Positions 31,457 to 43,068 of a DNA stretch of 64,000 nucleotides are shown here, in pieces. The DNA comes from Clostridia bacterium (GTDB lineage: Bacteria > Bacillota > DSM-521 > Neomoorellales > SLTJ01): NCBI GenBank assembly GCA_004347685.1, contig SLTJ01000001.1, positions 62,001-126,000 of the forward strand. Direction: 5' to 3'. The notes below the pieces were generated by a model, which made no database searches, was not told the origin of the DNA, and saw only the letters and a list, made by a program, of their open reading frames with translations. Position 1 is the stretch's first letter. Each line of letters opens with the position of its first letter. A program made the translations under genes and the position numbers.

Positions 31457-32125
31457 ATGGGTACAAAGCAGCCATATTCCAGCGTAGCTTCGCCGAAAAA
31501 ATTGCTGGTAGATGAAGAAGTGCTAAGGCGAGGCTTGACCGTCCGTTTTCCGCCCAAGGCCGTTATTTTCGCCCAAGGTGACCCGGCAGACAAGATTTTT
31601 TACCTGCGCTCGGGGATGATTAAACTTTACTTCATGAGCCGAGAAGGATATGAGAAGACCGTACTGTATAGCGAGGAAGGGAATTTCTTTGGCGATGCCG
31701 GGATGTTACGTGGAAAGCCATATGGGATCACGGCGGTAACGGTGACCGGTTGCGAGGTGGTGGTATTCACGGTCGGCCAGTTCCTGACCCTGTTCAAGGA
31801 GAATACCGAATTCGCCGAGGCATGTCTATACTCCCTGGCCGAGAAGCTTTGGGCAACTGGCCGGCAGGTAAACAACCTGGCCTTTGAAACCGGCTACGGC
31901 AAGGTGGTCAGCGCCCTAGCCTACGTAGCCAGGCACTCCGGGGTACCGGGGGGACAGGAGCCAGGTGAAGTGCGGGTCGAGGTAACCCAGCAGGAACTGG
32001 CCGAGATGGCCGGGGTAAGCCGGGTCACCGTGTCGGCTACGCTTAAGGATCTGCAGAAAAGCAATATTATCAGTACCAGCCGCAACGCCATTTTGGTGCA
32101 AAACCTGGAACTGCTGCGGCTGTAG
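31457..32125 (+). CDS. Crp/Fnr-family transcription regulator
   Basis: 222 residues, ATG 31457 with AGGGGTGAGG upstream. The N-terminal cyclic-nucleotide-binding-like beta barrel (FPPKAVIFAQGDPADKIFYL, ~31-50; GNFFGDAGMLRG, ~75-86) is followed by a long dimer helix and a C-terminal winged helix with VTQQELAEMAGVSRVTVSAT (~174-193). No N-terminal cysteine cluster is present, so it is not an FNR-type iron-sulfur sensor; the effector is unknown. It precedes the UbiD-TRAP cluster, whose upstream region carries a 21-bp inverted repeat at 32253, a plausible target. Confidence 0.92.
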   Translation: MGTKQPYSSVASPKKLLVDEEVLRRGLTVRFPPKAVIFAQGDPADKIFYLRSGMIKLYFMSREGYEKTVLYSEEGNFFGDAGMLRGKPYGITAVTVTGCEVVVFTVGQFLTLFKENTEFAEACLYSLAEKLWATGRQVNNLAFETGYGKVVSALAYVARHSGVPGGQEPGEVRVEVTQQELAEMAGVSRVTVSATLKDLQKSNIISTSRNAILVQNLELLRL

Positions 32126-32153: not shown

Positions 32154-32179
32154 AAGGCCTGGTTTCAGGCCTTCTTTTT
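32154..32179 (+). terminator. Intrinsic terminator of the Crp/Fnr gene
   Basis: AAGGCCTG-GTTT-CAGGCCTT hairpin followed by CTTTTT. Confidence 0.88.
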
Positions 32180-32252
32180 CTGGTGACCTCACTTCACGAC
32201 GCCACTCTGCCTCTCTTCCTGGAGTAACCTGCCATTGAGCAAGTGTAAAGTA

Positions 32253-32273
32253 CTTAACATATTCCGTGTTAAG
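32253..32273. promoter_or_regulatory. 21-bp inverted repeat, candidate Crp/Fnr operator
   Basis: CTTAACA (32253-32259), 7-base spacer, TGTTAAG (32267-32273): perfect 7-base arms, about 185 bases before the UbiD start. The spacing suits a dimeric winged-helix regulator such as the one just upstream. Confidence 0.5.
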
Positions 32274-32457
32274 AGATTTTTTATCTTATGCCAACAGCTT
32301 AGTCGTAGCTGTCTGAGTTCCAGATTATAATGCGCAATAAGAACGGCGTTGCAATAATGGGGAAGTCGGTATTATTACTGGAGGTGAAAAAACAAGAAAG
32401 TCCTCATTTAGCAAGAAAGTCAGGTCGCAAGGTTTATCACGAGGAGGAGGCAGCACT

Positions 32458-33957
32458 TTGGGCGGCAAGGACATCACTACTCTACGCGGAACTCTGGATT
32501 ACCTGGAGCAAGAAGGCGAACTGCTGAAAACCGACGCGGAAATTGATCCGATATACGAGATCGCCGGGGTAGAGAAAGCCCTGGAGAACGGTCCGGCCAT
32601 CCTGTTTAACAACATCAAAGGTTATCCCAACGCCAGGGATGCAGGCAATCTCTTTGCCCGCAAGGACCGGCTGGCCAAGATTTTTGATGTTGATACCCAC
32701 CAGAACACCAAATTTAAGTTCCTGAAAGCCATCAAGCACCCACTGGCACCAAAGGTGGTAGAGGCAGCCCCATGCCAGGAAGTGGTGCTGACAGAAAACC
32801 TTGACGTGCTTGCTACCATACCCATTATTAAGCATACAGAAAAAGACGCTGGCCGCATTTTGGGCGGAGGAATTATCTTTCTAGGTGGCGAATATTTCGA
32901 CGGAGGTAGCCATATTTCTCTCAACCGTGTTCATTTTCGCGGCAAGGACTGGGCCAGTATTTCCACCGGTTTGGAATACCACCTCTACAAGTCGGTGGGC
33001 GTGAAGCACCGGGGCAAAAAGGTTCCGATTACAATTAACATCGGCAATTCACCGGCAGTATGCGAATGCGCCGGTGGTGCCGGCACCCATACCATGATCC
33101 CGCCCGGCAGCGACGAACTGGCCATTGCTGGCGCCCTACAGGGAAAGCCGGTGGAGATAGTCAAGGCCAGGACTGTGGACGCCTACGCGATAGCAGATTC
33201 GGAGTGGGTCATTGAAGGATATATTGACACCAGCACCAAGGTGTGGGAAAGCGACGAATCCGAGCAGAACCAGAAGGCAGATACCTATCCCTTTTTCCCG
33301 GAATGGCCAGGGTACCTGGGGAGAGCCTATAAAGTCTTCAGGTTTCAGGTAACAGCTATCACCCATCGTTCCGACCGGCCGATTTTCTATAGCCCCCTGG
33401 CCGATTCCTACGAAGGGCTGTTGCTGGGGCTCCCCTTCCGGGAAGCCTGCCTGTACGAGGAGGCCAACCGGCTCTATCCGGGGCTGGTGCAAGATGTTAA
33501 CATCCTCTACGGCATGGGCGGCTGGTCCAGTGCTGTATATCAGATCAAGAAAAGAAGGCCGGCTGACGAGGGGTACCAGAAGAACGTCTTGCTGACCGCC
33601 TTCGGCACCCTCCCCGGCTGTCGCATTGCCATGGCGGTAGACGAAGATATTGACATTTATTGCGCCGAGGATCTTCTCTGGGCCCTGTCTACCCGGGTAG
33701 ACCCCACCAAGGACATTTTCTTCATCCCCGGCAAGGCCCATGCTTTTATCCCTGTAGCCAGATATAATCCTGAGACTCAGGCCCTGGCCATAGACGCCAC
33801 CGCGCCCTTCCAGTATAAGTTCCTCTTTGAGCGGGCGCACTACCCGGTAGACCGGGTGGACGTAAACCGCTGGTTCGGCAAGGAAGAAGTCACCAGGGCC
33901 CTCGCGCAGCAACTGGACAGCGAACGGGCCGTGAGCATGGCTAAAAACGGCTGGTGA
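32458..33957 (+). CDS. UbiD-family decarboxylase
   Basis: 499 residues from TTG 32458 behind GAGGAGG. It has the full UbiD fold (GGKDITTLRGTLDYLEQEGE at the start; a metal/prenyl-FMN region INIGNSPAVCECAGGAGTHT ~200; conserved acidic segment YEGLLLGLPFREACLYEEAN ~318-337). These enzymes (de)carboxylate aromatic or unsaturated acids with prenylated FMN. No ubiX prenyltransferase is in this window, so the cofactor must be made elsewhere. The neighbours (acyl-CoA synthetase, TAXI-TRAP transporter) suggest a route for an imported carboxylic acid. The substrate cannot be read from the sequence. Confidence 0.9.
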   Translation: MGGKDITTLRGTLDYLEQEGELLKTDAEIDPIYEIAGVEKALENGPAILFNNIKGYPNARDAGNLFARKDRLAKIFDVDTHQNTKFKFLKAIKHPLAPKVVEAAPCQEVVLTENLDVLATIPIIKHTEKDAGRILGGGIIFLGGEYFDGGSHISLNRVHFRGKDWASISTGLEYHLYKSVGVKHRGKKVPITINIGNSPAVCECAGGAGTHTMIPPGSDELAIAGALQGKPVEIVKARTVDAYAIADSEWVIEGYIDTSTKVWESDESEQNQKADTYPFFPEWPGYLGRAYKVFRFQVTAITHRSDRPIFYSPLADSYEGLLLGLPFREACLYEEANRLYPGLVQDVNILYGMGGWSSAVYQIKKRRPADEGYQKNVLLTAFGTLPGCRIAMAVDEDIDIYCAEDLLWALSTRVDPTKDIFFIPGKAHAFIPVARYNPETQALAIDATAPFQYKFLFERAHYPVDRVDVNRWFGKEEVTRALAQQLDSERAVSMAKNGW

Positions 33958-34123
33958 GTGGTACACAAAAATTAGAAAAACAGGGGTGACACAGAGGCAA
34001 CCTCATTCCCCCTGGAGCAGAAAACCTTGGCGCCGCGGGCAACAACGAAAGGCGGTAACGACGGCCAGGCACGGTTGGTAAGCCCGGTTTGAAGAGACTC
34101 CGAAAGCGGAGGCGACAAAAAGA

Positions 34124-36283
34124 TTGGGGAAACCTAAGCTTGATGCTTTGTTTAAGCCGTCGGCAATTGCCCACATTGGGGCGTCCGCTGATTTTACCAA
34201 AATCAGCGGACGGCCCCTGCGCTTCCTTTTGGAAATGGGCTATGCCGGGATGGTCTACCCTGTCAACCCGCAATACGATAATATTGGCGGACTCAAATGC
34301 TATCCCGATGTAGAGCAGCTCCCGTCCGGAATAGAGCTGGCCATAGTCAGCCTGCCGGCCCCGGCGGCGGTGGACGCGGTGGAGAAGTTTGCCCGGAAGG
34401 GTGGCCGGGCCGCTGTGATCATTTCTGCCGGTTTTGCCGAAGCTGGCCCCGAGGGGCAGAAATTACAGAAGAGGGTGCAGGAAGTAGCCGCTAAATACGA
34501 TCTGGCCGTCTGCGGGCCGAACTGTTCAGGTTTGATGAACGTCGGCGACAGGGTCACAGCCACCTTCAGCAGCGGTCTGGAGAGGGGACTGCCGCTAGAC
34601 GGCCCCGTGGCCATGGTGGGCCAGAGCGGCGCCCTGAGTTCTAATTTTCTGGCTGCAGCCAAGGATGCAGGCATAGGCTTTACCTACTGGGTAAGTACTG
34701 GCAATGAAGCGGTTTGTAATTTCAACGATTATGTGGCCTATTTCTTAGAAGACCCACGTACCGAAGTGGTGGTGGGCTACGTAGAGGATATCCGCCAGGG
34801 GCGACAGTTCAAAGAAGTCGCCAAACGCGCCCTGGAGCTCGGCAAGCCTATTATCCTCCTTAAGGTAGGCGTTTCCCAGGCCGGAGCCCGGGCCAGTTTC
34901 TCCCACACCGGCGCCCTGGCCAGCGCCGACAGCATCTACCAGGCCGTGTTTTCCCAACTGGGGGTTATCCGCGCCCACAACCTGGACGAGCTTTTTGACT
35001 TTGCCCGGGTGTGTACGGCCCGGGTCAGACCCCGGGGTAAACGGGCGGTCATCCTTACGGCTTCCGGCGGGGCCGGGGTGCTCATGAGCGATGCCTGCGA
35101 AGCCGAAGGTCTGGACCTGATCGAGGTATCAGAGGGACAAAGGGAGCGGTTGAGAAGAGCCTTGGGGCCCATTGCCGCGCGGGTGGCCATGCATAACCCC
35201 ATTGACTTTCCCGCCGAGGTCCTGGCCCGGCCCGAAATGCTGCGCCAGGCCTGTGAAGTCTTTGCCCACGACGACGAGGTAGATATAATCATCCTTTACG
35301 CCGGCATCCTTCCTGACGGCGGCGAGGAAAAGCTGGCGCGGGAGATAATCCAGGTAGCCACCAATTGTTCCAAACTGGTAGTCACCAACTGGTTTCCCAC
35401 CCCGCCAGCCCATGTGCTGCAAATGTTAACCGCAGCCCGCATCCCCTACTTTACCGAACCTACCCGGGGGGTGAAGGCCGCAGCCAGGCTGGCCGATTAC
35501 TGCCTCCTGCGAAAGGAATACCTGGACCGGCGGGGAAAGCCTGAACCGGAGCCGGCGATCCGGCCCGAAATCCTGGCCGAGGGTAAGAGCTACCTTGCGG
35601 AACTAAAAAAGGAACTAGGTGGCCGTAACCAACTTACCGAATACGAGGGCAAGAAACTCCTGGCCAAATTCGGCTTCCCGGTACCCCGGGGCGGGCTGGC
35701 CCGCACCGCCGAGGAGGCGGTAACCATCGCCGAGGGCCTGGGCTATCCGGTGGTGGTGAAGGTGGTTTCACCGGAGATCATGCACAAGACGGAGGCCGGC
35801 GGCATCCGGGTCGGCCTGAAGGGCCCGGAGGAAGTGCAAGAAGCTTTTGCCGCGGTCACCACCAGCGCCAGGACGTACAAGCCGGGGGCTGACGTGTGGG
35901 GGGTGCTGGTAGAAGAAATGATTGCCGGCGTCAGGGAGGTGATAGTAGGCCTCACCAACGATCGCTCCTTCGGCCCGGTGATAAGCTTTGGGCTGGGCGG
36001 CGTCTTTGTCGAGATACTCCGGGACGTGGCTTTCCTGCCTATACCCTTTGCCTGGGACGAGGCGCAGAATCTGCTGGCGAAGGTCAAGGGGTACCCCTTG
36101 CTGGCGGGTTTCCGCGGGGCTGAACCCGGCGATACCGAGGCCGTCGTCTCCGTGCTGATGCGTTTGCAGACCATGATCTTGACCCTGGGAGGCGAGATCG
36201 CCGAGCTGGACATTAATCCCTTGATGATCTGTGGCGCCGGCCAGGGCGCTGCGGTGGGCGATTGCCTGTTAGTATTGGCCTAA
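34124..36283 (+). CDS. ADP-forming acyl-CoA synthetase (acetate--CoA ligase family)
   Basis: 719 residues from TTG 34124, a fused alpha-beta NDP-forming acyl-CoA synthetase. The CoA-binding N-terminus has PSAIAHIGASADFTKISGRP (~12-31); VGQSGALSSNF (~166-176) and FSHTGALASADSIYQ with the phospho-histidine (~259-273) follow. The C-terminal ATP-grasp domain runs from LTEYEGKKLLAKFGFPVPRG (~500) to EIAELDINPLMICG. Such enzymes either activate an acid with ATP or make ATP from an acyl-CoA. Between the UbiD and TRAP genes, the likely role is CoA activation of the imported acid or energy recovery at the end of its pathway. Confidence 0.92.
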   Translation: MGKPKLDALFKPSAIAHIGASADFTKISGRPLRFLLEMGYAGMVYPVNPQYDNIGGLKCYPDVEQLPSGIELAIVSLPAPAAVDAVEKFARKGGRAAVIISAGFAEAGPEGQKLQKRVQEVAAKYDLAVCGPNCSGLMNVGDRVTATFSSGLERGLPLDGPVAMVGQSGALSSNFLAAAKDAGIGFTYWVSTGNEAVCNFNDYVAYFLEDPRTEVVVGYVEDIRQGRQFKEVAKRALELGKPIILLKVGVSQAGARASFSHTGALASADSIYQAVFSQLGVIRAHNLDELFDFARVCTARVRPRGKRAVILTASGGAGVLMSDACEAEGLDLIEVSEGQRERLRRALGPIAARVAMHNPIDFPAEVLARPEMLRQACEVFAHDDEVDIIILYAGILPDGGEEKLAREIIQVATNCSKLVVTNWFPTPPAHVLQMLTAARIPYFTEPTRGVKAAARLADYCLLRKEYLDRRGKPEPEPAIRPEILAEGKSYLAELKKELGGRNQLTEYEGKKLLAKFGFPVPRGGLARTAEEAVTIAEGLGYPVVVKVVSPEIMHKTEAGGIRVGLKGPEEVQEAFAAVTTSARTYKPGADVWGVLVEEMIAGVREVIVGLTNDRSFGPVISFGLGGVFVEILRDVAFLPIPFAWDEAQNLLAKVKGYPLLAGFRGAEPGDTEAVVSVLMRLQTMILTLGGEIAELDINPLMICGAGQGAAVGDCLLVLA

Positions 36284-36303
36284 ATTTTTTCTTGGGAGGG
36301 TGG

Positions 36304-37410
36304 ATGATGAAAACAAGCCGTATCCTGGTACTTTTGTTGTCCCTCGCCATGGTTTTGGTTCTGGTGGCCGCCTGCGGGCAAGAAGCCGAATCGCCCACCT
36401 CAGGCCCGGCCGCAGGTCAATCCGGGACCGCTGGGTCACAACCTGCGGCCGTCGAACTTCCCAAAGTGGTCAACATTGGTACCAACCAGGTAGGATCAAC
36501 CTATCACTCCGTCGGGAGCGTACTGGCCACGGTGATGACCAAGTACTCGCCCATCCCGGCTAAGGTGGTGCCGCTGACCGGCTCGCTGGAATGGATTCCC
36601 ATGATGTTGACCAAGGAAATTGATCTGGGGATAGTGGGAGACTATGAGGCCTGGGCCGCGCTGCACGGGAAAGAGGACTTTGAAAAGCTGGGTCAGGGCA
36701 AGGGTTTTCCCTTGCGCCTAGTGGCTGCGGGGCATCATAATCAGACCACGATGTTGACCTCGGAAGCATCCGGCATTAAGACGGGAGCCGATTTGAAGGG
36801 GAAGAGAGTTACGCTTACCTACAGTGCCGGGGGGCTTATTCTCAAGAAACAACCTTACGCTTTTTTAGCCAATCTCGGGCTACAGCCCGGCGATGTTAAA
36901 GACGTGCCCATGTCGGCCATGGCCGAGGGCGTCAAGGCGGTTATCGAGGGCCGCGCCGACGTGGCCATGGACGTCTCCCTGACGGCACCGGCCGTACAGG
37001 AGCTGGAGGCGGCCAAGGGGGCGAGGTTTATCTCGCTGGATCCGTCTTCTGAGGCTATTGCCAGGGCCGCGGAGATAATACCCGGTTTTCAGGTCAAAAA
37101 GGTTGATCCGGCCCCAGGCCGTGCCGGGGTGAAAGAGCCCACGTACTTCGCCGATTATCCCGTCTATCTGGTCAGCCGGGCCGACTTGCCGGACCAGGCG
37201 GTGGGGGAACTCCTTAAGGCCCTTTGGGATCACAACGATGAAATTGTCTCTGCCGCCAAGCCCCTTAACGAGTGGACAAAGGCAGCCTTCGTAACGTCCA
37301 ACCCGATTATTCCATACCACCCTGGGGCGGTGAAGTTCTACAAGGAGATAGGGGCTTGGCCATCAGATCTCGATGCCAAACAGGATCAGTTACTCCAGGA
37401 AGCGAAGTAG
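36304..37410 (+). CDS. TAXI-family TRAP transporter solute receptor (lipoprotein)
   Basis: About 368 residues. ATG 36304 behind GGGAGGGTGG gives a lipoprotein signal with lipobox LVAAC (~residue 24), then a Ser/Pro/Gly linker and the receptor domain beginning VVNIGTNQVGSTYHSVGSVL, the TAXI pattern. LKGKRVTLTYSAGG (~167-180) and GRADVAMDVSLTAP are typical. It binds an organic anion outside the membrane and hands it to the fused permease encoded 98 bases downstream. A stem-loop in that gap could stabilise its mRNA for higher expression. Confidence 0.93.
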   Translation: MMKTSRILVLLLSLAMVLVLVAACGQEAESPTSGPAAGQSGTAGSQPAAVELPKVVNIGTNQVGSTYHSVGSVLATVMTKYSPIPAKVVPLTGSLEWIPMMLTKEIDLGIVGDYEAWAALHGKEDFEKLGQGKGFPLRLVAAGHHNQTTMLTSEASGIKTGADLKGKRVTLTYSAGGLILKKQPYAFLANLGLQPGDVKDVPMSAMAEGVKAVIEGRADVAMDVSLTAPAVQELEAAKGARFISLDPSSEAIARAAEIIPGFQVKKVDPAPGRAGVKEPTYFADYPVYLVSRADLPDQAVGELLKALWDHNDEIVSAAKPLNEWTKAAFVTSNPIIPYHPGAVKFYKEIGAWPSDLDAKQDQLLQEAK

Positions 37411-37438
37411 CAAGTATTGATTTGGATTCTTTATTTTG

Positions 37439-37479
37439 GTGCCCCTGGTGTCTGGCGGTATGTGGATAGCCGGGGGCAC
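37439..37479 (+). other. Stem-loop between TRAP receptor and permease genes
   Basis: GTGCCCC (37439-37445) and GGGGCAC (37473-37479) form a perfect 7-bp stem without T-run. Such intercistronic hairpins often protect receptor mRNA. Confidence 0.45.
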
Positions 37480-37508
37480 GAACCTCACCTTGGTGTGGAG
37501 GGTCAGCG

Positions 37509-39449
37509 GTGGACGAAAACGAACGTGGGCAATACCGCATCTTCTCTGGCATGCTGGGAGGGTTTGAAAGGTGCCTGGCCGTGGCCCTCCCATTGCTGGG
37601 AGTCGCCTTTATCCTGCATCTTCCCGATTCTCTCCTCGGCATCAGCGTCCTGATGCAACAATACGTAGCCCTCTTTCTGGCAGCCGCGCTTTTGCTCGTT
37701 TTTATGGGGGTACCCGCCTCGGGAAGCGCCCCCAGAGACAGGTGGCCTTGGTATGATATCCTGCTGGCCGTAACCGCCTGTCTGGCCTGTTTATATGTGG
37801 TGGGTTTTTACCCCACCTTGATACTCGGCCTGGGGCAGACCACCTTGCTTAAGTCCGTTCTGGGTGCGGTAATCCTTGTGTGCGTTTTGGAGGCGACCCG
37901 TCGGGTAGCCGGCTGGACCCTGACCATTGTGGTTTTAGTTTTTATATTTTACGCCAAGTTCACCAACCTGTTCCCCAGTTTTCTGTACGGGCAGCCGTTA
38001 AGTTGGGCCAGGTTGCTGAATTACGTATATCTCGGCGCGGACGCCGTCTTCGGCTCAATAATAGCCATAGCCGCTACCACGGTACTGGCCTTCGTACTGT
38101 TTGGCCAGTTTTTATCCGGTACCGGCGGCAGCACTTTCCTGATCAGCCTGGCCCAGGGGGTTATGGGCCGTTACCGGGGCGGACCGGCTAAGGTCGCAGT
38201 GGTAGCCAGCGGTCTGTTCGGGATGATTTCCGGAAGCGCCGTGGCCAACGTCGTCAGCACCGGCATCATAACCATCCCGATGATGAAGCGCACGGGTTAC
38301 CCGCCGTACTTCGCCGGGGCGGTGGAAGCGGCTGCCTCTACGGGCGGCTCAATCATGCCACCAGTGATGGGCGCGGCCGCCTTCCTGATGGCCCAGTTCC
38401 TGGGAATCCCCTACGCCAGCGTGGCCCTGGCCGCTTTCATCCCCGCCGTCCTATATTACCTGGGAATTTTCATCCAGGTTGACTTGCGGGCGGCCAAGGT
38501 AGGACTGAAGGGGTTGGAACGCTCCATGATCCCATCTATAAAGAATACTCTGGCGCAGGGCTGGATCTTTATCGTCCCCATGGTGGTGCTGGTCTATGCA
38601 TTGTTGGTGCTGTACCTCCCGGCCGAACTCGCGGCCATGTATTCTGTCGCCAGCCTGCTGGTGGTCGCCACGTTAAGAAAGGAAAGCAGGATAGCGCTGG
38701 CCAAGGTGCTGGAGATGCTTGAGGGCGCCGGCTGGGCCCTTCTCGATATAGGCATTGTCTGTGCCGTGGTGGGTTTCGTAGTGGGTCTCGTGTCTGTCAC
38801 CGGCCTGGCCTTTTCCTTGCCCCAGGCCCTGGTAAGCCTGGCCGGCGGAAACATATATGTCTTGCTGCTGTTGACAGCAGGCATTACCGTTATCATGGGC
38901 ATGGGCTTGCCCATCACCGCCAGTTACGCTCTCATGGCGGTTATCGCGGTGCCTGCCCTGGCACAGTTGGGGGTTCAGCCCCTGGCGGCGCACCTATTCG
39001 TGCTCTACTTTGCTGCCATGTCCTTTATTACGCCGCCGGTGGCCCTGGCTGCCTATGCCGCAGCTTCGGTGGCCGGAGCGCCTATGGTGCAGACTGGGTG
39101 GCAGGCAGTCCGCCTGGCCATATCGGCCTTCCTGGTGCCCTTTGTCTTCATCTTTCACCCGCCTTTGCTGGCCATGGGATCAGCAGGCAGCGTGATCACC
39201 TCGTTCATCTTTACTGCCATTGGTGTCGTCGCCCTGGCCATGGCGCTGGAAGGCTATGTTCTCCGGATGCTGGGGCTGCCTGAGAGGGTGTTCCTGGGTG
39301 CTGCCGGAGTCCTGATGATCCTGCCGGAAATGATCAGCACCCTGGTCGGGCTGGTTGTTGTAGCGGCCATTGTGATGCTTGAGTTTATCCGGCGCAAGCA
39401 GGTTTCATCGGTCGTATTTAATGAAACGCGGGCTGAAGGCCAGGGATAA
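37509..39449 (+). CDS. TRAP transporter permease, 4TM/12TM fusion
   Basis: 646 residues, GTG 37509 with GGAGGG upstream. About four helices of the small (DctQ-like) subunit are fused to the 12-helix DctM-like permease. VASGLFGMISGSAVANVVST followed by GIITIPMMKRTGYPP (~235-270) and VEAAASTGGSIMPPVMGAAA (~277-296) are signature segments of the fused TAXI-type permease. It imports an organic acid with sodium or protons. The last helices (VVALAMALEGYVLRM onwards, ~577-640) are partly duplicated in the next small ORF. Confidence 0.93.
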   Translation: MDENERGQYRIFSGMLGGFERCLAVALPLLGVAFILHLPDSLLGISVLMQQYVALFLAAALLLVFMGVPASGSAPRDRWPWYDILLAVTACLACLYVVGFYPTLILGLGQTTLLKSVLGAVILVCVLEATRRVAGWTLTIVVLVFIFYAKFTNLFPSFLYGQPLSWARLLNYVYLGADAVFGSIIAIAATTVLAFVLFGQFLSGTGGSTFLISLAQGVMGRYRGGPAKVAVVASGLFGMISGSAVANVVSTGIITIPMMKRTGYPPYFAGAVEAAASTGGSIMPPVMGAAAFLMAQFLGIPYASVALAAFIPAVLYYLGIFIQVDLRAAKVGLKGLERSMIPSIKNTLAQGWIFIVPMVVLVYALLVLYLPAELAAMYSVASLLVVATLRKESRIALAKVLEMLEGAGWALLDIGIVCAVVGFVVGLVSVTGLAFSLPQALVSLAGGNIYVLLLLTAGITVIMGMGLPITASYALMAVIAVPALAQLGVQPLAAHLFVLYFAAMSFITPPVALAAYAAASVAGAPMVQTGWQAVRLAISAFLVPFVFIFHPPLLAMGSAGSVITSFIFTAIGVVALAMALEGYVLRMLGLPERVFLGAAGVLMILPEMISTLVGLVVVAAIVMLEFIRRKQVSSVVFNETRAEGQG

Positions 39450-39484: not shown

Positions 39485-39781
39485 GTGGGCCGGGAACTGC
39501 TATTGAACCGGTCGCATCTGCGCCATGGGGTAGCTAACAAGCTGGACAGCAAAATTGAAGAGCAGCGCAAGGAATTAGCTGGAGTGTCCGCCACAGGCGT
39601 GGCTGCCCTGGCGGCTGCCCTCGAGGGATATATCTTCCGGGAGAGGCCTATAGTTTATAGGGTAATTCTTGGGGTCTCTGGAATCCTGGTCATATTCCCC
39701 GAGTTGGTCACCACTGTTATCGGCCTGGTAGCCGTAATAGCAGTGGGGGCGTGGAATTGTTGTGGCACCAGTCGCATCTAG
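39485..39781 (+). CDS. Chimeric ORF: coiled-coil piece plus TRAP-permease tail duplicate
   Basis: 98 residues. Residues ~18-33 (KLDSKIEEQRKELAG) match the coiled-coil protein at 41264 (KLDTKIEEQRKEIRQ). Residues ~37-90 (GVAALAAALEGYIFRERPIV and on to LVTTVIGLVAVIAV) match the C-terminal helices of the upstream TRAP permease (GVVALAMALEGYVLRM ... MISTLVGLVVVAAIV). It looks like a duplicated permease tail with a coiled-coil start in front, probably a gene remnant. No strong ribosome site is seen at GTG 39485. Confidence 0.5.
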   Translation: MGRELLLNRSHLRHGVANKLDSKIEEQRKELAGVSATGVAALAAALEGYIFRERPIVYRVILGVSGILVIFPELVTTVIGLVAVIAVGAWNCCGTSRI

Positions 39782-39844: not shown

Positions 39845-41059
39845 ATGTATCGCTTAGCCCTCCCCCTGATCTATCTTACAGGGGGCGTTTACAACATAGC
39901 TTTGTTTGTTGCGGTTATCCTCATCCCTTTATATGCCCTCTCTTTAGGTCTTGACCCCATGTCCATCGCTGTGCTGGTTTCGGTGCCGGCGGCGATGCAG
40001 TTGGTTACCAGATTTATAGGCGGAGCCATGACTGATAGATGGGGGGAGAAAAACGTCCTGCTTGTTAGCTATGGGGGGATAGCCCTAACAGGGCTGGCAT
40101 TTGCGGGTGCCCGCGGCTTTTGGGCTATGATGGCGGCCCAGTTTCTTTTGAGCTTTTCGCGGGGATTATTCTGGAGCCCGGCGCAGACTTATCTCTCTAA
40201 GTTGCCCGGGAGTAAGGTTCGCCTGGGCCAGATTATGGGCTACTTTAATGGGACTACCAGTGCCGGAGCTGTGGCCGGTCTTATGGTAGGAGGAATGCTG
40301 CCGGAAAGGGTGGGTTACAGCCTGTCTTTCCTGGGCGTGGCTGCTTTGGGAGTCACCTGCCTGGTATTTCTATTCTTTTTGCCCTCCCTACCGAAGAAGG
40401 GAGCAGGGGCGGTGCGGGGAACAGGTTTTGGGGGACTGTTGGAAGTAGCGAAGATCAAGCCTCTGTACCTGGCAGGGATTTGCGCTTTTGTAGCTGCTTT
40501 GCCCATGAGCCTGGTGGGGTCCTTTTACCCGATCTACCTGGATGACGTGGGATTTAGTGAAGACGTCATCGGGATACTTACTGCCCTGCGATCTGTAGGC
40601 ATGGTCATCGCCGGTGTTTTCCTGGGGAAATACGTGGATTTACTCAGTCCTGTTCTTTCGTACAGCCTCGGCCTCGTAGCGGCCGGGGCTGGCCTCGCCC
40701 TTACCAGGTTTACGGCGGATGGTCTGGCTCTTGCCTTGCTCATTTCCCTCACGGGGACAGGTGCCGGCGTGGCGAATACCCTTTACCAGACTTTGACGGC
40801 CCGGTACAGCCCGGAGGATAAGCGTGGGGCGGCCATGGCCTTGACAGGTAACTTCTGGGGAGCTTCGCTGTTAGTCACTCCTCTTGTGTTTGGCCTGATT
40901 ACCGAGCTTATCAGCCTGGCGTCTTCTTTTCTGATCGTGGGGATGGCTGTAATTATTACTGGGGCTCTCGGGCCAGTGATGTTCAAATGGTTGTTGCCTG
41001 CCGCCTATTTGCAGCCTCAGCCCGCCCTGGAGAGCCCGGGCCGGGTGAAAGGCGAATGA
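39845..41059 (+). CDS. Major facilitator superfamily transporter
   Basis: 404 residues with twelve hydrophobic helices. The loop 2-3 motif GGAMTDRWGEKNVLL (~60-74) is the MFS A-motif variant, and GLVVAGAGLAL/LFLSLTGTGAG-like glycine-rich helices follow in the second half (TGTGAGVANTLYQTLTARYS). The substrate is not evident. It sits downstream of the TRAP genes but after a 65-base gap with no obvious ribosome site other than GAGAGAGTT. Confidence 0.85.
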   Translation: MYRLALPLIYLTGGVYNIALFVAVILIPLYALSLGLDPMSIAVLVSVPAAMQLVTRFIGGAMTDRWGEKNVLLVSYGGIALTGLAFAGARGFWAMMAAQFLLSFSRGLFWSPAQTYLSKLPGSKVRLGQIMGYFNGTTSAGAVAGLMVGGMLPERVGYSLSFLGVAALGVTCLVFLFFLPSLPKKGAGAVRGTGFGGLLEVAKIKPLYLAGICAFVAALPMSLVGSFYPIYLDDVGFSEDVIGILTALRSVGMVIAGVFLGKYVDLLSPVLSYSLGLVAAGAGLALTRFTADGLALALLISLTGTGAGVANTLYQTLTARYSPEDKRGAAMALTGNFWGASLLVTPLVFGLITELISLASSFLIVGMAVIITGALGPVMFKWLLPAAYLQPQPALESPGRVKGE

Positions 41060-41263: not shown

Positions 41264-41791
41264 TTGCAACAACTCAATAAGCTGGATACAAGAATTGAAG
41301 ATCAGCGTAAGGAAATAAAGCAGGATTTCGAGAAGCTGGATACCAAAATCGAAGAGCAGCGCAAGGAAATAAGGCAGGGTATCCGGGCGCTGCGGGAGGA
41401 GATGAAGCAGGGGGATCAGACCCTACGGGAAGAGATGAACCAAGGTATCCAGGCGCTGCGGGAGGAAATGAAGCAGGGGGATCAGGCCCTACGGGAAGAG
41501 ATGAGGCAGGGTATCCGGGCGCTGCGGGAGGAAATGAAGCAGGGGGATCAGACCCTACGGGAAGAGATGAACCAAGGTATCCAGGCCCTGCGGGAGGAAA
41601 TGAGGCAGGGGGACCAGGCCCTGTGGCAGGAGATGCAGGGCCTGCGGCAGCAAATGGAGCAAGGTTTCCAGGTGCTGCACCAGGAAATCCACGGCCTCAG
41701 CCGCTGGGCCATAGGTACGATAATAGCTGTGGCCGTTGGTCTCGGCGGAGTTATAGCGTCGCTTCTGGCTATTTTAGCCCGAATGCCCTAG
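41264..41791 (+). CDS. Hendecad coiled-coil protein with C-terminal membrane anchor
   Basis: 175 residues. After two 18-residue repeats (KLDTRIEDQRKEIKQDFE, KLDTKIEEQRKEIRQGIR) come at least eight consecutive 11-residue repeats of type ALREEMKQGDQ (~residues 42-129); DNA repeats of 66 bases underlie them. A membrane helix (AIGTIIAVAVGLGGVIASLL, ~148-167) closes the protein. The start is uncertain: TTG 41264 has no ribosome site, the frame is open back to 41171, and a better start region (ATG 41163, MPEEELLKQQVAAGRK) is in another frame that stops at 41260, which suggests a frameshift. Function unknown; an extended membrane-tethered rod is likely. Confidence 0.65.
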   Translation: MQQLNKLDTRIEDQRKEIKQDFEKLDTKIEEQRKEIRQGIRALREEMKQGDQTLREEMNQGIQALREEMKQGDQALREEMRQGIRALREEMKQGDQTLREEMNQGIQALREEMRQGDQALWQEMQGLRQQMEQGFQVLHQEIHGLSRWAIGTIIAVAVGLGGVIASLLAILARMP

Positions 41792-42173: not shown

Positions 42174-42632
42174 GTGACCGCATCCCGGATTGACTTAGTG
42201 CGCCTGACGGCAAAGATAAGTGACATTGAGGAGTGCCTGGGCATTCTGCGCGGCTACGCGGGGTACGTGGATGAGCAGTTCCTGGAAAACGCCGAAGCTG
42301 TCCGTTCGGCCCGCTACACATTTATCGTGTTAGTCGAAGCGGCGGTAAATATTGCCATGCACCTTTGCGCCCGCTTGTTGCGCCAGGCTCCAGCTACCTA
42401 TGCTGAGAGCTTCGAAATGCTGGCCGAACATGGGTTTTTACCGGCAGAGCTGGCTCGGCGGCTGGCCCAAATGGTTGGCTTCCGCAATTTGCTGGTGCAC
42501 GGCTATGAAAAGATAGACGACCGGCGGATGCTGAAGGTGACGCGCGAGGACCTCGGGGACCTTGAGCTGTATTTGGCCGCGATAAGAGAAGTGCTGGCCA
42601 GGGAGAAGGGTAACCATGGCCAGAGGCGCTAG
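42174..42632 (+). CDS. hepT: HepT-like toxin (DUF86)
   Basis: 152 residues, GTG 42174 with GGGGAG upstream. The helical DUF86/HEPN fold contains the catalytic-type motif RNLLVHGY (R-x4-H, ~residues 103-110) of HepT, plus EAAVNIAMHLC and the ERMLKVTRED-like C-terminal part. HepT is a HEPN ribonuclease or AMPylation target neutralised by the MntA nucleotidyltransferase, whose gene overlaps its 3' end by 17 bases. Confidence 0.9.
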   Translation: MTASRIDLVRLTAKISDIEECLGILRGYAGYVDEQFLENAEAVRSARYTFIVLVEAAVNIAMHLCARLLRQAPATYAESFEMLAEHGFLPAELARRLAQMVGFRNLLVHGYEKIDDRRMLKVTREDLGDLELYLAAIREVLAREKGNHGQRR

Positions 42633-43068
42633 GGTAAACATGAGCCTGGACGAGCGGCCCCAAAAGCTTTCCCGGCGGGAGAAAGGGCGCATCCGCCGGG
42701 TTGTCCGCGAGACATTGGCGGAGCGCCGGGAGGTCAGGTTTGCCTTTTTGCATGGCTCCTTTTTGGACAATATTCCTTGTCAGGACGTGGATGTGGCAGT
42801 TTATTATGAACCAGATCTTGACTCTGAGGCCCAGATGGACTTGTCCCTATCCCTGGCGGCGCAGCTAAGCGTGCGGGCGCGTATTGAGGTGGATGTCCAT
42901 GGGTTGAACCAGGCCCGGTTGCCTTTTCGCTATGCAGCTACCAGGGGTGAAGTAATGGTGATGCGGGATGAGCAGGAGTTGGGTGAATTTCTGGAGCGGA
43001 CATGGCGGGATTACCTTGATTTCGAGCCTTTATACCGGGCCACCATAGAAGATATTCTGGCCCCGTAG
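42616..43068 (+). CDS. mntA: MntA-type nucleotidyltransferase antitoxin
   Basis: 150 residues with the minimal nucleotidyltransferase motif GSFLDNIPCQDVDVAVYY (~residues 52-69; GS and DxD) and a third acidic residue in RIEVDVHGL (~92). In known HepT/MntA systems this antitoxin AMPylates HepT. ATG 42616 overlaps hepT; ATG 42640 is an alternative. Order toxin-antitoxin is as in other HepT/MntA pairs. Confidence 0.9.
   Translation: MARGARVNMSLDERPQKLSRREKGRIRRVVRETLAERREVRFAFLHGSFLDNIPCQDVDVAVYYEPDLDSEAQMDLSLSLAAQLSVRARIEVDVHGLNQARLPFRYAATRGEVMVMRDEQELGEFLERTWRDYLDFEPLYRATIEDILAP

Follow-up and report, generated by a model that had tools for sequence, protein, structure and literature searches.

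A UbiD, ADP-forming acyl-CoA synthetase and TAXI/TRAP gene cluster in a Clostridia bacterium, a candidate module for the uptake and activation of an aromatic acid

We analyzed a 64,000-nucleotide stretch of contig SLTJ01000001.1 of a Clostridia bacterium (assembly GCA_004347685.1), hereafter the window, in which five genes lie in order on the + strand, encoding a Crp/Fnr-family regulator, a UbiD-family decarboxylase, a nucleoside diphosphate (NDP)-forming acyl-CoA synthetase (ACS), a TAXI solute-binding lipoprotein and a fused TRAP permease, with gaps of 332, 166, 20 and 98 bp between successive genes. A sequence-only reading of this DNA had claimed a UbiD, an ADP-forming ACS, a TAXI lipoprotein and a fused TRAP permease in succession, and this was borne out by domain and profile matches. 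The UbiD (32458..33957, +; 499 amino acids, TTG start) matched PF01977, PF20696 and PF20695, and the ACS (34124..36283, +; 719 amino acids, alpha and beta parts fused) was found to harbor CoA_binding, Succ_CoA_lig and ATP-grasp_5 domains. The TAXI protein (about 36304..37410, +), carrying the lipobox LVAAC, and the DctQM-type permease (37509..39449, +) both passed the curated cut-offs of their profiles, scoring 163 bits with TIGR02122 (cut-off 84 bits) and 634 bits with TIGR02123 (cut-off 321 bits), respectively. A Crp/Fnr protein (31457..32125, +; 222 amino acids; PF00027 69.8 bits, PF13545 55.5 bits) does precede the set, as the earlier reading had it, but it falls outside the interval 32253-39449 given there for the cluster, and a hairpin lies in between.

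The UbiD decarboxylase and comparable loci

The solved proteins closest to the window UbiD were the phthaloyl-CoA decarboxylases (PCDs) of Thauera chlorobenzoica (8oz5/8p02 and 8pmk; 334 bits, 37% identity), with AroY coming next at 195 bits. A scan of the genome collection with the UbiD returned 79 homologous loci at 36-49% identity, including those of Desulfosarcina cetonica (L102) and Aromatoleum (L098, L106). In the phylogeny, which the sequence-only reading had proposed as a check, the window UbiD and these homologues formed one clade with a support of 100/100, which a long stem sets apart from AroY as well as from relatives in the same phylum and seven UbiDs encoded by the same genome (a quick tree of 120 rows was built besides the careful ones). 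Judged by its sequence, the window UbiD is thus a member of the PCD clade, monophyletic with the characterized PCDs and with AroY and the other UbiDs outside, and the characterized members of this clade decarboxylate phthaloyl-CoA (PMC13040137). Within the clade it was the most divergent branch, and a basal placement and a placement joining L029-L032 were not separated by the approximately unbiased test (p 0.09 and 0.06).

The UbiD retained Arg157 and Glu282 (in PEWPGY), which align with the Arg and Glu of the prenylated FMN site of other UbiDs. Its AlphaFold2 model (pLDDT 81, pTM 0.85) gave as the top Foldseek match 8oz5 (E 3e-47, TM 0.80), a structure solved with 2-cyano-benzoyl-CoA, and the root-mean-square deviation of ~11 Å between the two indicates that their domains are set differently. 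Several other assignments were rejected. A grouping with the menaquinone enzymes, the outcome that had been raised against the proposal at the outset, was checked by both score and tree, and a menaquinone or ubiquinone role was excluded (TIGR03701 107.8 of 495.9 bits, separate in the tree). A phenolic-acid decarboxylase of the AroY or VdcC type was likewise dismissed (VdcC 239 of 650 bits, AroY outside the clade), and AroY-like proteins from other Firmicutes (36-37%, ~210 bits) were rejected as orthologues.

The proposed likeness to the clusters of phthalate-degrading anaerobes also held, as the order of a PCD-type UbiD, a CoA ligase, TAXI and TRAP genes is common to the window, D. cetonica and Syntrophorhabdus (L031). 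D. cetonica is a known phthalate degrader, and its cluster consists of a PCD, an AMP-forming ligase (PF00501), TAXI and fused TRAP genes and then UbiX; it differs from the window in the AMP-forming class of its ligase, in having UbiX ~1.3 kb past the permease and in its TAXI and TRAP proteins, which belong to a separate group. The Syntrophorhabdus locus comprises GntR, a PCD-like gene, an AMP-forming ligase, TAXI and TRAP, and Syntrophorhabdus activates isophthalate by an AMP-forming reaction (PMC9516798). The phthalate cluster of Aromatoleum evansii (L106) and its relatives share PCD, TAXI and TRAP genes with the window, but there activation falls to two class III CoA-transferases, and UbiX lies directly upstream. 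Published routes of phthalate activation are succinyl-CoA transfer in denitrifiers, for which import by TAXI-TRAP is documented, and an ATP-dependent ligase in sulfate reducers, and the phthaloyl-CoA formed is very unstable (PMC13040137).

Across the PCD clade, a class III CoA-transferase was found within 6 kb in 44 of the 78 loci, mostly directly downstream. Together with the AMP ligases lying directly downstream in D. cetonica and Syntrophorhabdus, a CoA-activating gene is near the UbiD in at least 46/78, which fits CoA-ester substrates. An NDP-forming ACS beside the PCD-clade UbiD was found at none of the 78 homologous loci. As far as these comparisons of sequence and gene order can tell, the window cluster is a known module whose activating enzyme has been swapped for a non-homologous one.

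The synthetase and its genome context

Apart from its three domains, the ACS harbors both catalytic His motifs of the NDP-forming class (SHTG at 260 and HKTE at 554), and its domain order is that of the archaeal ADP-forming 4-hydroxybutyrate-CoA ligase 8wzu. It is unlike this ligase and the Pyrococcus enzymes in what they are known to act on, namely short-chain or arylacetic acids and no aromatic dicarboxylate (PMC3942289). Since the ADP-forming synthetases of Pyrococcus act on arylacetates, an aromatic acid is not impossible as a substrate of the window ACS; the Pyrococcus enzymes also make ATP from acyl-CoAs (PMC3942289). The expectation that ADP-forming ligation would be unusual for aromatic acids proved right, with no other PCD-like locus examined having an ADP-forming ACS. 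Its description as energy-conserving stood only in part, as activation in the import direction would spend one ATP to ADP and Pi, which is cheaper than AMP-forming activation but would yield no energy. Among the papers available to the literature search, none linked synthetases of the ADP- or NDP-forming class to UbiD or to benzoyl-CoA. Elsewhere in the phylum, the same ACS was adjacent to a UbiD in 0/14 neighborhoods, and in 1/14 a UbiD lay ~4-5 kb away.

The genome itself contains 26 UbiD matches, a count that includes fragments and near-duplicates from contig ends, vs 0-12 in 40 relatives, along with 13 ACS and 6 TAXI matches. The window cluster is one part of this larger finding, an exceptional expansion of UbiD genes. 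UbiD and ACS genes are neighbors in four places (C6, C16, C9 and C39), that is, in the window and three more, where ~0.2-0.4 would be expected at random by a rough estimate in which gene duplication is not taken into account. The three additional neighborhoods contain the same kinds of genes as the window: C16 has the order UbiD, small subunit, ACS, TAXI, TRAP, and C9 (L109:13369-16988) holds a decayed Crp-UbiD-ACS-TAXI-TRAP module with the Crp gene upstream and fragments of UbiD and ACS. In the tree, the window ACS clusters with its counterparts from C16 and C39 (99/98), whereas the UbiDs of all three neighborhoods belong to other clades. Within the expansion, on contigs C9, C11, C23, C35, C38, C39, C41 and C52, we also observed linked TAXI-TRAP, aldehyde-ferredoxin-oxidoreductase-like, HdrA-like and UbiX genes.

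Candidates for all the roles of an anaerobic phthalate locus (PCD, activating CoA-transferase or CoA ligase, transporter and UbiX) are present in this genome, but the activator is of the ADP-forming kind and UbiX is unlinked: homologues 62-65% identical to the UbiX of D. cetonica are present away from the cluster. Moreover, C18 (L135:7645-12303, minus strand) carries a BcrCBAD-like set for a class I benzoyl-CoA reductase, in which BcrC and BcrB scored over the NCBIfam cut-offs, the BcrA-like protein scored just under, and the adjacent gene of 272 amino acids has the size of a BcrD gene.

Proposed function and alternatives

On balance we favor the view that the cluster serves to take up and activate an aromatic carboxylic acid that is handled as its CoA ester; the likeliest candidates are benzene-dicarboxylates, for example phthalate or a near analogue of it. 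That the substrate is indeed phthalate or one of its isomers we hold as a tentative assignment. Gene content and order, the clade of the UbiD, the class of the ACS with its motifs, and the UbiX and Bcr-type genes can be read from the sequence; for the substrate, the direction of the reactions, the CoA ester as what the UbiD acts on and the control of the genes we infer the following scheme. The TAXI lipoprotein would bind the acid for import by the fused TRAP permease, driven by an ion gradient, after which the ACS would form the CoA thioester by phosphohistidine chemistry, converting ATP to ADP and Pi. The UbiD, with prenylated FMN supplied through the UbiX encoded elsewhere, would then take the second carboxyl off the CoA ester, and the aroyl-CoA so formed, probably benzoyl-CoA, would pass to the BcrCBAD-type reductase of the genome. 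The upstream Crp/Fnr protein would be a probable transcriptional regulator of these genes.

Several observations weigh against this view. The window UbiD keeps 40/125 clade-specific positions, where other basal members keep 78-82, and it lacks the loop that follows about residue 437. At 37% identity to the Thauera enzyme, with few of the PCD-specific residues and no C-terminal loop, it is best regarded as a sister or basal lineage and not as a proven PCD. No earlier example of an aromatic dicarboxylate activated by an ADP-forming ACS came to light, and among 398 sampled genomes of the phylum none showed this pairing of UbiD with ACS. The window TAXI falls outside the group made up of the TAXI proteins from phthalate clusters (split 100/99), and the TRAP permeases are also apart. 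Finally, the 6-oxocyclohexenecarbonyl-CoA hydrolase TIGR03200 scored below its cut-off in the genome (75 of 464 bits), so that the benzoyl-CoA route is either incomplete as read or served by another ring hydrolase. Phthalate was rejected as a conclusion to be drawn from the transporter, given these separate groupings and a fold search in which the TAXI model matched general TAXI structures only.

An alternative that we regard as unlikely is that the UbiD acts on a free hydroxyaryl, heteroaryl or unsaturated acid, in the manner of AroY, VdcC or HmfF, while the ACS acts on the decarboxylated product or on an unrelated short-chain acid. It draws on the other UbiD-ACS-TAXI-TRAP modules of the genome, whose UbiDs are of clades that need no CoA (one of them with a subunit resembling phenylphosphate carboxylase gamma), and on an ACS substrate that cannot be read from sequence. 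However, the window UbiD is strongly excluded from those clades and its own is associated with CoA activation, and a decarboxylated phenol or furan would have no carboxyl left for ligation unless the substrate were a diacid.

We consider it quite improbable that the cluster works in the carboxylating direction, or that it serves to detoxify an acid, unsaturated or heteroaromatic, that has no relation to phthalate. UbiD enzymes are reversible, and most of the broad PCD-like clade is uncharacterized, including members in soil Alphaproteobacteria and Binatia that have no CoA-activating neighbors; the importer, however, argues for an external substrate, and the members characterized so far are phthaloyl-CoA decarboxylases. 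About as improbable is that the ACS works toward ATP formation, the diacid being decarboxylated as its CoA ester and the energy of the aroyl-CoA returned to ATP in a metabolism of decarboxylation only (CO2 for an acetogen, benzoate excreted). In favor of this are the ATP formation by the Pyrococcus enzymes, the missing TIGR03200 and the aromatic decarboxylation known from the Moorella group, which the order of this bacterium may resemble; against it stands the Bcr-type reductase set of the genome.

If the cluster does activate a dicarboxylate as its CoA ester, it may, more speculatively, represent a third activation strategy for phthalate-type acids in anaerobes, in which a reversible ADP-forming ACS replaces the AMP-forming ligase or the succinyl-CoA transferase, halves the ATP cost of ligation and is reused within one genome with several different UbiDs for several aromatic acids. 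Were a Firmicute to use such a cheaper and reversible route, this would matter for understanding how anaerobes short of energy meet the cost of using aromatic acids, and for judging which organisms might break down residues of plasticizers. The large UbiD set of this genome would also provide a good test bed for finding the substrates of orphan UbiD clades.

The regulator, upstream repeats and neighboring genes

The Crp/Fnr protein has no Fnr-type cysteine cluster, its only cysteines being C99 and C123. A terminator-like hairpin with a T-run lies 3' of its gene (32154..32173, +), and so crp is probably a transcription unit apart from the UbiD operon, though terminator-like hairpins are no more frequent in the region than in shuffled sequences.

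The 21-bp inverted repeat reported upstream of the UbiD gene does exist, as CTTAACA-N7-TGTTAAG at 32253..32273 (no strand assigned), and is the single perfect copy of this pattern in the 3.1-Mb genome. Arms of 7 bp at one fixed spacing are expected by chance ~4 times per 64 kb (64000/4^7), and the pattern with up to 3 mismatches about once in the window. The repeat is thus only weakly above chance and constitutes weak evidence of an operator, because arms of such size and spacing are expected by chance. It is overlapped by a candidate operator, a near-palindrome of Crp geometry (TGTAAAGTACTTAACA; 32244..32259, no strand assigned) that was recognized post hoc by a pattern match as a TGTAA-N6-TAACA box and is the sole TGTWA-N6-TWACA match in the window. 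No copy of the repeat was found upstream of the other UbiD-ACS clusters of the genome, and it was rejected as a regulon-wide operator. Its proposed role as the binding site of the regulator is accordingly suggestive at most. A second inverted repeat, ACAGCT-N7-AGCTGT, lies 40 bp downstream at 32294-32312 and has the same 7-base spacer.

Downstream of the permease, an open reading frame of 98 amino acids (39485..39781, +) is a remnant of the C-terminus of a second TRAP permease (TIGR02123 positions 551-607), and it is followed by a gene encoding an MFS transporter (39845..41059, +; PF07690 150 bits), possibly in the same unit as the UbiD-TRAP genes. Further on, at 41264-41791, lies a coiled-coil protein with repeated LREEMKQGDQ-like units and a hydrophobic C-terminal stretch. 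The remnant contains a short sequence (LDSKIEEQRKEL) related to this protein, which suggests recombination. Lastly, two overlapping genes at 42174-43068 encode a HepT-like ribonuclease and a polymerase-beta nucleotidyltransferase, a candidate toxin-antitoxin pair of the HEPN-MNT type.

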